This document shows positions 3,065 through 5,953 of a stretch of 64,000 bases of DNA, piece after piece. Position 1 is the first letter of the stretch; each line of letters opens with the position of its first letter. A program made the translations under genes and the position numbers. Under the pieces are notes generated by a model that ran no database searches, had not been told where the DNA came from, and saw nothing but the letters and a program-made list of their open reading frames with translations. This stretch comes from Jiangella anatolica (GTDB taxonomy: Bacteria > Actinomycetota > Actinomycetes > Jiangellales > Jiangellaceae), in contig NZ_POTW01000001.1 in NCBI RefSeq assembly GCF_003236295.1, positions 124,001 to 188,000 of the forward strand, given 5' to 3'.

Positions 3065-3586
3065 ATGTCGGAGATCCTCTTCACCGTGCTGGCCGGACTG
3101 GTCGGCCTGGAACGCCTGGCCGAGCTGGTCGTGTCGAAGCGGAACGCAGCCTGGAGCTTCGCCCGCGGCGGCGTCGAGTTCGGCCGCGGCCACTTCCCCT
3201 TCATGGTCGTCCTGCACACGGGCCTGCTGGCCGGCGCCGTCGCCGAGGTGTGGATCCGCCGGCCGGAGTTCGTGCCCGCGCTCGGCTGGACGATGCTGGC
3301 GCTGGTCGTGGCGTCGCAGGCGCTGCGCTGGTGGTGCATCGCGACGCTCGGTCGCCAGTGGAACACCCGGGTCATCGTGGTTCCCGGGTTCTCTCTCGTG
3401 CACGAGGGGCCGTACCGGCTGCTGCGGCACCCGAACTACGTCGCCGTCGTGGTCGAGGGGTTCGCGCTGCCGCTGGTGCACTCGGCCTGGATCACCGCGG
3501 TCGTGTTCACCGCCGTCAACGCCGGCCTGCTCGCCGTCCGCCTCTCGGTCGAGAACCGCGCCCTGGCCGAGCTCGCGCCGAGATGA
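3065..3586 (+). CDS. Isoprenylcysteine carboxyl methyltransferase family protein (SrsB-like)
   Basis: 173 residues with about four to five membrane segments. The C-terminal half has the ICMT/PEMT-type pattern VHEGPYRLLRHPNYVAVV, which binds S-adenosylmethionine. In srs-type clusters the homologous protein O-methylates the alkylresorcinol or quinone product. The gene starts 5 bp after the PKS stop, and its own stop overlaps the next start by 4 bp (ATGA), so it is translationally coupled. A longer open frame runs upstream through the PKS gene, but the ATG at 3065 is the sensible start. Enzyme family is clear; the acceptor hydroxyl is inferred from context. Confidence 0.85.
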   Translation: MSEILFTVLAGLVGLERLAELVVSKRNAAWSFARGGVEFGRGHFPFMVVLHTGLLAGAVAEVWIRRPEFVPALGWTMLALVVASQALRWWCIATLGRQWNTRVIVVPGFSLVHEGPYRLLRHPNYVAVVVEGFALPLVHSAWITAVVFTAVNAGLLAVRLSVENRALAELAPR

Positions 3587-4605
3587 TCGACGTCATCGTC
3601 GCCGGTGGCGGCCCGGCCGGGCTGACGGCGGCGGTGCTCGCCGCGCGCAGCGGCCTGGAGGTGGTGGTGCACGAGCCCCGCTCCGCCCCGATCGACAAGG
3701 CCTGCGGCGAGGGGCTGATGCCCGGCGCCGTCGCCGCGCTGGCCGCCCTGGGCGTCGACCCGGATGGGCAGCCGCTGCGCGGGATCCGGTACGTGTCGGG
3801 CCCTCGGTCGGTCGCGGCGGACTTCCGCGCCGGACCGGGCCGCGGCGTCCGCCGGACCACGCTGCACGCCGCGCTGCGCTCGGCCGCCGACGCCGCCGGC
3901 GTCCCCGTCCTGCCGGACGCCGTCGAGTCCGTGGAGCAGCACCCCGACGGGGTCGTGGTCGACGGCGTCCGCGCCCGGTACCTCGTCGCCGCCGACGGCC
4001 TGCACTCGCCGATCCGCCGCCGGCTCGGCCTGGACCGCCCGGTGGCGCGGGCGCGCCGGTTCGGGCTGCGCCGGCACGTCCGGCTGGCGCCCTGGACGGA
4101 CTATGTGGAGGTGCACTGGGCGCCGGCGGCCGAGGCCTACGTGACGCCGGTCGGGCCGGACCTCGTCGGCATCGCGATGCTGACCAGCACACGAGCGCCG
4201 TTCGACCGGCACCTCGACGCGTTCCCGGCGCTGCGGGAGCGCATCGACGGCTTGCCGCTGACGGCGGTGCGCGGCGCCGGCCCGCTGCGGCAGCGGTCGC
4301 GGCGGCGGGTCGCCGGGCGGACCCTGCTGGTCGGCGACGCCGCCGGCTACGTCGACGCGCTCACCGGCGAGGGCGTGGCGCTGGGCATGGCGCAGGCCCG
4401 TGCCGCCGTCGCGGCCATCGTCGCCGGCGAGCCGGCCCGTTACGAGGTGGCCTGGCGGCGGCTCACCTGGCGCTACGAGCTCCTGACCCGGGCCCTCGTC
4501 GGCGCGACCTCGATCGGCCCGGGCCGGCGGGCCCTCGTCCCGGCCGCGGTCGCCTGGCCGCGGCTGTTCGGCGGCGCGGTGAACGTCCTGGCCGGCCGGG
4601 ACTGA
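3583..4605 (+). CDS. FAD-dependent oxidoreductase (SrsC-like / geranylgeranyl reductase family)
   Basis: 340 residues. It begins with the FAD-binding motif GGGPAGLTAAVLAARSG and carries DKACGEGLMPG, the same family signature as the protein at 1-1130, then GDAAGYVDALTGEG. Family members hydroxylate or oxidise aromatic rings, or reduce prenyl chains. In srsABC the third gene is a flavoprotein hydroxylase that oxidises the methylated alkylresorcinol, and that role fits here. The start overlaps the methyltransferase stop (ATGA). It is the last gene of the operon, followed by a convergent non-coding region with repeats. Confidence 0.82.
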   Translation: MIDVIVAGGGPAGLTAAVLAARSGLEVVVHEPRSAPIDKACGEGLMPGAVAALAALGVDPDGQPLRGIRYVSGPRSVAADFRAGPGRGVRRTTLHAALRSAADAAGVPVLPDAVESVEQHPDGVVVDGVRARYLVAADGLHSPIRRRLGLDRPVARARRFGLRRHVRLAPWTDYVEVHWAPAAEAYVTPVGPDLVGIAMLTSTRAPFDRHLDAFPALRERIDGLPLTAVRGAGPLRQRSRRRVAGRTLLVGDAAGYVDALTGEGVALGMAQARAAVAAIVAGEPARYEVAWRRLTWRYELLTRALVGATSIGPGRRALVPAAVAWPRLFGGAVNVLAGRD

Positions 4606-4635
4606 TCCGGAGCGAGCACCTCGGCGGATGGGTGC

Positions 4636-4725
4636 CTTGGCACGCTCCAGTGTCGTGCTTGGCTCGCTGTAGATGACCTCATGCGCCTGGAATGTCGCGT
4701 TTGTGGAGCGCTTGGGCGTGCCAAG
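4636..4725. repeat. 90-bp repeat with terminal inverted repeats, copy 1
   Basis: The element begins CTTGGCACGC and ends with the exact reverse complement, GCGTGCCAAG. By hand alignment 73 of 90 positions match copy 2 at 4861, and the outer 18 left and 10 right bases are identical between copies. It lies in the gap between two convergent genes. It could be a REP/MITE-type element or a bidirectional terminator module; no flanking target duplication was recognised. Confidence 0.7.
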
Positions 4726-4860
4726 GGCGCGGGCACCTCAGCCGCTGTCGGCGCTCATGCGGTGTCGGCGCGGGTGACGTGCGCACGGCGCGCGTGCCAC
4801 CAGATCGGGACGCCGCGCTGTATCGGGACCACGGCGGCGGGTGCGCCGGGGTGCGCGCGG

Positions 4861-4950
4861 CTTGGCACGCTCCAGTGTTGTGCTTGGCTCGCCGCAGGTG
4901 ACCAGATGTGCCCGAAATGCCGTGATCGTGGAACCCGTGAGCGTGCCAAG
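4861..4950. repeat. 90-bp repeat with terminal inverted repeats, copy 2
   Basis: Same length and orientation as copy 1, about 81 % identical by hand count. Here the terminal inverted repeat extends to 12 bp (CTTGGCACGCTC against GAGCGTGCCAAG). It ends 10 bp before the stop codon of the complementary-strand dehydrogenase gene at 4961. Confidence 0.7.
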
Positions 4951-4960
4951 GCTGCCCGGG

Positions 4961-5953
4961 TCAGCTCCGGTCCGACTCGACGGCGGTCCAGTCGCCGGAC
5001 GCGGCCGAGGCGCGCAGGGCGTCGGCGACGGCGAGGGCGGCCAGGCCGTCGTCGAGCCCGACGAGGGGAGCGGCGGCGCCGGCGGCCACCTCCAGCAGGT
5101 GGTCGAGCTGGCGGCCGAGTGCGGCGGCGGGCGGCTCGGCGAAGCTCTGCAGCCGGTCGGCGTCCTCGCCGGCGCGGCGCAGGGTCAGCGTGCCGCGGCC
5201 CACGTCGGCCAGCAGCGATCCGCCGGTGCCCACGACGTGGATGGTCCGGGTGCCGCGCGGCTCGACGTAGTCGAGGTGGAACGCGCCGGTCACCCCGCCG
5301 ACGTGGGTCAGCAGGCCGTCGACGACGTTGGGCTCCTCGACGTGCGGCACGCCCCGAACCGTCCGGGCGACGGCGAGGCAGCGGGTGACCGGGCCGAAGA
5401 ACCAGCGCAGGTAGTCCCACTCGTGCGAGTAGTCGCGGTAGAGGCGGTCCGGCTCCGGCGTCGCGAACCGCGACACGGCGGCGGTGATCGTCCCGTAGGC
5501 GCCGAGCATGACCTGGAACGACGTGGGCTCGCCGACCAGGCCGTCGGCCAGCGCCGAGCGCACCGCCCGCACGACCGGCCGGTGCCGCAGCACGTAGCCG
5601 ACCAGCACCGGCGTCCCCGTGGCGCGGATCCGCCCGGCCGCGTCGGCCGCGTCGGCCGTGCTGGGCGCCAGCGGCTTCTCCACCAGCGTGGGGATGCCGC
5701 GGCCGGCCGCCGCCTCCAGCTGGGGCAGGTGGAACTGGTCCGGCGCCGCGATCACCAGCGCGTCCGGGCGCAGGTCGAGCAGCGCCCCGAAGTCGTCGAC
5801 GGTCCGCTCGACGCCGCGCTCGTTGGCGCGTTCGCGCAGCTCCGGATCGGGATCGAAGGCGACGACGCGGACGCCGGGGCGCCCCACGAGCACGTCGAGG
5901 TGCTGCCGCCCGATGGATCCCAGCCCGCTGACCGCCACCCGTGTCACCGGCAT
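4961..5953 (-). CDS. Gfo/Idh/MocA family NAD(P)-dependent oxidoreductase (first of three)
   Basis: 330 residues. The N-terminal Rossmann domain has GLGSIGRQHLDVL, and the sugar-dehydrogenase motif appears as LVEKPLAPS. The C-terminal alpha/beta domain is of normal length. Family members oxidise or reduce sugars, inositols or sugar acids. The start is the ATG at 5951-5953, preceded by GGAGG. A longer open frame exists upstream, but it would cross the operator. The gene is divergent from the SDR/Gfo-Idh operon at 6055 and shares its 101-bp control region, which contains the IclR-type operator sites. Substrate unknown. Confidence 0.85.
   Translation of the reverse strand: MPVTRVAVSGLGSIGRQHLDVLVGRPGVRVVAFDPDPELRERANERGVERTVDDFGALLDLRPDALVIAAPDQFHLPQLEAAAGRGIPTLVEKPLAPSTADAADAAGRIRATGTPVLVGYVLRHRPVVRAVRSALADGLVGEPTSFQVMLGAYGTITAAVSRFATPEPDRLYRDYSHEWDYLRWFFGPVTRCLAVARTVRGVPHVEEPNVVDGLLTHVGGVTGAFHLDYVEPRGTRTIHVVGTGGSLLADVGRGTLTLRRAGEDADRLQSFAEPPAAALGRQLDHLLEVAAGAAAPLVGLDDGLAALAVADALRASAASGDWTAVESDRS

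Follow-up and report, generated by a model that had tools for sequence, protein, structure and literature searches.

A dispersed 90-bp element in Jiangella and its association with genes for predicted AbiEi-nuclease fusion proteins: a possible counterpart of RAYT/REPIN systems

What is the pair of 90-bp repeats that lies between two converging genes of Jiangella anatolica, and how would it have come to be there? The window analysed here is a stretch of 64,000 nucleotides from contig C111 of the 7.0-Mb draft genome of this organism (256 contigs; named G000 among the twelve genus genomes compared below), in which genes were called, as in the whole analysis, with a codon-usage script. The first copy occupies positions 4636-4725 and the second one positions 4861-4950, both on the + strand. 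On the left, the 3′ end of a gene for an FAD-binding protein (3583-4605, + strand) is found 30 bp from copy 1, and on the right that of a Gfo/Idh/MocA family gene (4961-5938, - strand) is found 10 bp from copy 2. A sequence-only reading had described direct repeats of 90 bp, with terminal inverted repeats of 10-12 bp, in a single convergent gap, and this description holds: 73 of the 90 bases match without gaps (81% identity), copy 1 starts with the outer left box CTTGGCACGC (4636-4645, + strand) and finishes with the right inverted box GCGTGCCAAG (4716-4725, - strand), and copy 2, with its outer left box CTTGGCACGC (4861-4870, + strand) and its right inverted box (4941-4950, - strand), has a perfect terminal repeat of 12 bp. 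Absent from that reading was an inner left box, CTTGGCTCGC, which in each copy lies 22 bp past the first (4658-4667 and 4883-4892, both on the + strand) and which, in copy 1, marks the beginning of a 68-bp core. As the two copies match each other by BLAST with E=4.4e-18 in a genome of 7.0 Mb, the pair is far above chance. The block of the FAD-binding gene is kept in 11 of 11 genus relatives, with a homology that stops at 4593-4609, and the Gfo/Idh/MocA block lies at another place in G004, G009 and G010, so that the pair (window 4597-4960) sits on a gene-order break within the genus.

A lack of further copies in the genome would have favoured a local duplication, but dozens of them exist. Besides copy 2, a BLAST search of the own genome with copy 1 recovers 10 more full-length copies at E<1e-16, and at E<=1 it gives 48 matches, 34 of which span the whole element (31 are 90 bp long and 3 are 91 bp). 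With a sequence profile made from 34 aligned copies, matches at E<=0.01 number 68, a figure in which some partial and antisense overlaps are counted. At least 57 non-overlapping elements, typically of 90 bp and hereafter called A elements, were counted in the 36 loci taken, some places with profile matches lying outside this set. The 10-mer CTTGGCACGC occurs 154 times, against 17 for its reversed control, and among the places listed for these 154 (up to contig C179 of the 256-contig draft), read for a parent transposon with the same ends, only those in C11 and C66 were noted as isolated boxes, both chance-like, and a transposase with matching ends was not seen. On 14 contigs of this genome (C59, C64, C189, C253, C56, C78, C244, C38, C90, C33, C43, C68, C53 and C37) a copy lies at most about 0.7 kb from a contig end; arrays may thus interrupt the contigs, and the counts given here may be too low.

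At E<=0.001, the profile finds a match in 11 of the 12 genus genomes, the own one included. There are 63 matches in G000, 22 in G002, 16 in G001, 10 in G010, 3 each in G006 and G011, 2 each in G005 and G008, 1 each in G003, G004 and G009, and 0 in G007. By BLAST, no A element was found in nine relatives outside the genus. A 26-base pattern taken from the right end was sought in contigs that represent one genome per species, a set from which the records closest to the window's genome may be missing; it occurs in 13 stretches, 12 of them from Jiangella rhizosphaerae and one from Phytoactinopolyspora limicola; a viral origin was discarded, the pattern being absent from viral contigs. At least one element occupies the same place in two species, J. 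rhizosphaerae (L076) and G006 (L112), which indicates that some copies are old. Near two of the ten elements of G010 (L270:2102-2260 and L273:2645-2790) there is, in addition, a long imperfect inverted repeat, CCCGTCCCCCTGATAGGTGCCCGTTCTTAGGCC ... GGCTAAGAGAATGGGCGCCAGGGGGACGG.

In the architecture of the element, two direct CTTGGCACGC boxes stand 22 bp apart, the second starting at position 23, and a third one is inverted at the right end. Across 37 different full-length copies, positions 1-9 (CTTGGCACG) and 81-90 (GCGTGCCAAG) are invariant; these copies were picked for reaching both termini in a gapless alignment, a choice biased towards intact ends, and a copy in which base 3 is changed stands outside the set. 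Their interiors frequently agree at only about 80% of positions. A conserved, non-palindromic stretch, about GCGCCCGAAATGCCGCGTTTGTGGA, lies in the right half of the core. Variants consist of the 68-bp core alone, or carry extra boxes 20-22 or 41-42 bp apart, an example being the five boxes in a row on contig C14. We read the boxes as putative protein binding sites phased on the helix. A protein-coding repeat, conceivable for a unit of 90 bp (30 codons), was rejected, as the variable positions display, by eye, no period of three.

Genes were called on both sides of 27 A clusters, 6 of them in convergent, 19 in tandem and 2 in divergent gaps, against 11, 36 and 23, respectively, among 70 background gaps longer than 100 bp. 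Clusters are rarer in divergent gaps than the background (2/27 against 23/70; Fisher p 0.0098), and the preference for convergent genes that the window pair might suggest is not seen for the family (6/27 clusters against 11/70 gaps). Gene 3′ ends are a median of 30 bp away, 5′ ends a median of 104 bp. Adjacent elements, with a gap below 600 bp, are direct in 18 of 18 pairs, and since identity is 0.89 within doublets and 0.71 between them, the doublets look mostly like local duplications. A doublet built as a unit, with a left and a right type, was considered and dropped: left-left, right-right and left-right identities are equal (0.71), and it is the members of a doublet that resemble each other (0.89). 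A few spacers are common to different loci (L051 and L101, 91% over 90 bp), and some doublets may therefore have dispersed whole; the window spacer (4726-4860, no strand assigned) does not match those of the other 17 doublets at E<=1e-3. As for the claim that the window pair itself has duplicated, it is doubtful: copy 1 is 92% identical to its nearest relative, G000:C220:16022-16111, against 81% to its neighbour, although members of a doublet are, over the whole family, far closer to each other than to other doublets.

Which protein, then, could recognise such boxes? Pfam scans of ten proteins gave an AbiEi_4 or DUF559 match in two genes located between elements. The domains PF13338 and PF04480 were next mapped in six genomes, and each of six Jiangella genomes contains 8 to 18 AbiEi_4 matches. 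One of these genes, of a clade that we call A, lies between kdpE and gatC in the own genome (G000:C14:7824-8804), as do its orthologues in G002 (contig C297) and G010 (from 1054811). In the three genomes with an orthologue (3/3), the gene is flanked on both sides, within about 130 bp, by an A element in the orientation of the gene. A protein search over the 12 genomes found orthologues with 80-100% identity in G000, G002 and G010 only, the next best homologues reaching 48-50%. An AbiEii/DUF1814 toxin gene was not recognised beside the genes of this clade, nor beside those of clade B described below, neighbours being judged by eye from their translations.

For the product of the A gene, prediction points to a fusion of a DNA-binding protein of the AbiEi antitoxin type with a nuclease of the Vsr/EDxHD type. 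AlphaFold2, applied to 24 family members, yields a mean pLDDT of 89.8, and at E<=0.001 Foldseek returns the AbiEi antitoxin 6y8q and nothing else. In the predicted model, residues 1-196 superpose on 6y8q with Z 12.1 (rmsd 4.5 over 175 residues) and on Rv2827c (1zel) with Z 9.3, and the AbiEi models of PADLOC span residues 8-181. In turn, residues 197-312 of the model resemble 3hrl (Z 12.0), I-Bth0305I, a homing endonuclease of the EDxHD type (3r3p; Z 11.9, rmsd 3.1 over 97 residues), and Vsr (1cw0; Z 10.6). Six residues, E200, E204, D236, E247, D249 and K253, are the same in all 24 members. At the sequence level, Pfam assigns AbiEi_4 to 23 and DUF559 to 5 of the 24 members, a sequence search against solved structures gave a best E of only 0.12, and NCBIfam had no family for any of six proteins (6/6). 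Among plasmids, a single weak match was found, in Collinsella (32%).

The same kind of neighbourhood was sought around other homologues by comparing 450 bp upstream with 450 bp downstream of 36 distinct loci. Flanking matches of at least 50 bits occur at 10 of the 36, against 1 of 226 control genes taken from the window and from stretches of G004 (Fisher p 7e-9); the ten positive loci, 2 from A, 6 from B and 2 from C, are related and thus not independent. When gene ends are set exactly, and L134 left out, the count becomes 9/36, because one clade C repeat overlaps the end of its gene, and the A gene of G000 reaches only 42 bits because its elements lie farther out. Among the clades defined from the tree, clade D gave no value above 27 bits in this comparison (0/14 loci).

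Clade B is a second case. Its genes lie between inverted repeats of about 75-80 bp, unrelated to CTTGGCACGC, in 8 of the 8 genomes that have the gene. In seven genomes the gene stands between mshC-like and PAC2-like genes (named by eye), sharing the direction of mshC in five of them and opposing it in the other two; G008 carries the cassette at a different locus, with a B gene that stops early. With 40 candidates scored per genome, the repeats are dispersed, with at least 49 in G002, 45 in G011, 42 in G005, 39 in G001 and 29 in G006; 4 matches were found in G000, where no B-clade gene was recovered, 2 in G008, which are the pair around its own gene, and 0 in G003, G004, G007, G009 and G010. 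The B gene of G003 and G007 is a divergent one, with 57% identity to its G001 counterpart, and so are the repeats that flank it. At the loci examined, close B doublets are inverted in 16 of 16 rows, which correspond to 10 distinct places, with spacers of 34-91 bp, and 45 clusters, some places being counted twice, comprise 31 convergent, 13 tandem and 1 divergent.

Two further observations concern these repeats. Their outer ends (TGATCACG) overlap the stop codons of adjoining called genes, often by 5 bp (L320:1626-1703; L321:1895-1971 and 2888-2961; L326:1950-2026; L327:1860-1920), and this end may supply the stop codon of neighbour genes. Moreover, the cassette appears in both orientations at the same locus across species (L323 and L324 against L320, L325, L326, L327 and L328), as if it inverted between its repeats.

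In clade A2, whose protein is 46-50% identical to that of clade A, a single element is found, upstream of the gene. It is related to the A element, with the left box altered to CTTGGCAAGGC, and compared with the reversed A consensus it scores above 1000 of 1000 shuffles in three of four genomes and above 988 of 1000 in the fourth. Clade C homologues (L161, L162, L164 and L166) have a different palindrome nearby, GATCATGGAGAA...TTCTCCATGATC or similar, which found no match outside clade C loci in the DNA examined. Altogether, the association between AbiEi-Vsr genes and repeats is well supported.

Signs of movement were sought in the flanks of the elements and in close relatives. Among 56 copies, direct duplications of the target of 2-12 bp are not more frequent than in permuted flanks. 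At the A-gene locus, G004 has an unrelated 527 bp in place of element, gene and element, within surroundings that are 97-98% identical to G010; in the alignment with G010, the left limit of the replacement falls no more than 2 bp from the left element, and its right limit coincides with the last base of the right one. Eight G010 loci were compared with G004, four of which have a counterpart in the stretches examined: the gene locus itself; two at which G004 lacks 509 bp and about 640 bp, respectively; and a fourth whose element lies on the junction of an apparent 2.2-kb deletion, by which a TetR-like gene (so named by eye) is cut. None of the four displays a clean empty site of exactly 90 bp. 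The presence of elements thus differs between close relatives through events larger than one element, which in our reading fits break repair better than cut-and-paste. Of the proposal that the window pair represents a small non-autonomous mobile element or a REP-type unit, the part that stands is the short, non-autonomous, REP-type and dispersed character; its mobility stays putative: no target duplication was found, and the indels that separate occupied from vacant sites in relatives about 95-98% identical are larger than the element.

RAYT transposases and REPINs are the standard example of short repeats coupled to a domesticated enzyme in bacterial chromosomes, the transposases being thought to drive the spread of the repeats. 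We favour, with a probability of roughly 0.6, a comparable arrangement with an unrelated enzyme, in which the boxes are the binding sites of the AbiEi-Vsr protein and its nuclease drives the spread of the elements; the binding to the boxes, the cutting, and the cutting as cause of the spread are what we infer. The AbiEi-type part of one chromosomal protein (G000:C14:7824-8804) would bind CTTGGCACGC boxes along with some bases beside them, sites that recur at spacings of about two or four turns of the helix. The C-terminal Vsr/EDxHD-type nuclease would cut or nick the DNA held at the boxes, and repair or recombination would place a copy of it, sometimes together with adjoining sequence, at further intergenic positions; what is copied would be the element held at those boxes. 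New copies would mostly persist beside gene 3′ ends, where insertion is tolerated.

Both boxes are perfect in 46 of 57 copies in G000, in 16 of the 20 taken (out of 22) in G002 and in 7 of 10 in G010, that is, in the genomes with the A gene. For G002 and G010 together this gives 23/30, against 1/13 in seven genomes without the gene, G001 excluded, in a comparison made with a profile built mostly from G000 copies. With G001 included, the contrast is 23/30 against 12/29 (p 0.008). G001 has 16 A copies, 11 of them with perfect boxes, yet no A orthologue (best homologues 35-37%), and this is the main result against the AbiEi-Vsr model; intact copies without the cognate gene oblige one to assume either a recent loss of the gene or another partner. 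Also counting against the model are, for B, the 0 matches to the B query in G003 and G007 despite their divergent B gene and the 4 matches in G000, where no B-clade gene was recovered, and, for A, the lack of target duplications and of clean 90-bp empty sites, the resemblance of the doublets to local duplications, and the single upstream element of A2.

Other explanations must be weighed against this proposal. The elements could be ordinary MITEs moved in trans by an unrecognised transposase, the AbiEi-Vsr gene being a passenger caught between two copies. A short dispersed element with perfect terminal inverted boxes, present in one close relative and missing in another, is what this would predict, but it leaves aside the absence of target duplication in 56 copies, the fact that two unrelated repeat families bracket two clades of one protein family when only 1 of 226 control genes is so flanked, and the joint divergence of element and protein between A and A2; we regard it as unlikely. 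Alternatively, the AbiEi-like protein might be only a regulator, its dispersed operators forming a regulon or having spread by chance recombination. In a previous study (PMC7319586), 23-bp inverted repeats are the sites to which monomers of AbiEi bind, and autoregulation by AbiEi proteins works through multiple inverted repeats; the single upstream element of the A2 genes would equally suit a plain operator. Against this stand the rarity of copies in divergent gaps (2/27 against 23/70), their median position nearer to 3′ than to 5′ ends (30 against 104 bp), the elements downstream of the gene, and the conservation of the nuclease residues, which make a purely regulatory role quite improbable.

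The proximity of the copies to gene 3′ ends also raises the option that they work at the RNA level, as 3′ UTR structures or two-way terminators, and are kept for that function. The perfect pairing of the 10-bp ends would suit it, and RNA folding had been suggested as a check; the z-scores are modest (-1.6 to -2.7), and neither folding, nor RNAalifold, nor Rfam gave support. Double changes are absent from the end stem and affect 2 of 21 predicted pairs in all, Rfam has no match inside the A elements (window 4400-5200), the loop holds conserved bases too, and in many relatives the elements are few and decayed. Such a function appears very improbable to us as the explanation of the family.

A wider proposal follows from the AbiEi-Vsr model, and we advance it tentatively, at slightly less than even odds. 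AbiEi-Vsr fusions would be a new class of genome-resident repeat drivers, with several clades in Jiangella, and perhaps in other Actinobacteria, each having its own box-built repeat, a pair of which is kept around the gene, and dozens to hundreds of non-autonomous copies generated by nuclease-induced copying: an independent RAYT/REPIN counterpart without a transposase of known class. Within the open PMC literature, no paper contains both AbiEi and DUF559, a search on actinobacterial REP and MITE elements gave none, and no report of this pairing stands among the titles and abstract openings listed for related searches.

The comparison with known systems places these elements at the crossing of several of them. 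As in RAYT/REPIN systems (PMC3116915), there are dozens of short extragenic repeats per genome (A and B), repeats bracket the partner gene (A in 3/3 genomes, B in 8/8), and different gene clades have their own repeats; inverted doublets like those of REPINs characterise B (10/10 distinct close doublets), A doublets being instead direct (18/18). Unlike them, the A unit is of 90 bp with 22-bp boxes, and the bracketed protein is a predicted AbiEi plus Vsr-type nuclease and not a Y1 HUH tyrosine transposase, for which reason we do not file the system under RAYT/REPIN. With type IV AbiE antitoxins (6y8q; Rv2827c, 1zel) the protein shares the AbiEi fold predicted for residues 1-196 and the 23-bp inverted repeats bound by AbiEi offer a likeness (PMC7319586), the dispersal of the sites over the genome being different; it departs from them in its extra nuclease domain and in its neighbours, kdpE and gatC for A and mshC-like and PAC2-like genes for B, with no AbiEii recognised by eye. 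With MITEs the elements have in common their short, non-autonomous nature and the terminal inverted boxes; the negative target duplication test separates the A element from that class. Finally, the predicted fold of residues 197-312 and the conserved acidic residues recall the EDxHD homing endonuclease I-Bth0305I and Vsr; unlike the former, the gene is free-standing in the chromosome, between repeats and complete genes, and not in an intron or intein. If the AbiEi-Vsr model is true, the RAYT/REPIN way of life would have arisen with another enzyme, an antitoxin-type DNA-binding protein joined to a homing-type nuclease, proteins annotated only as AbiEi or DUF559 would gain a function, and the line between toxin-antitoxin systems, homing and transposition would be blurred.
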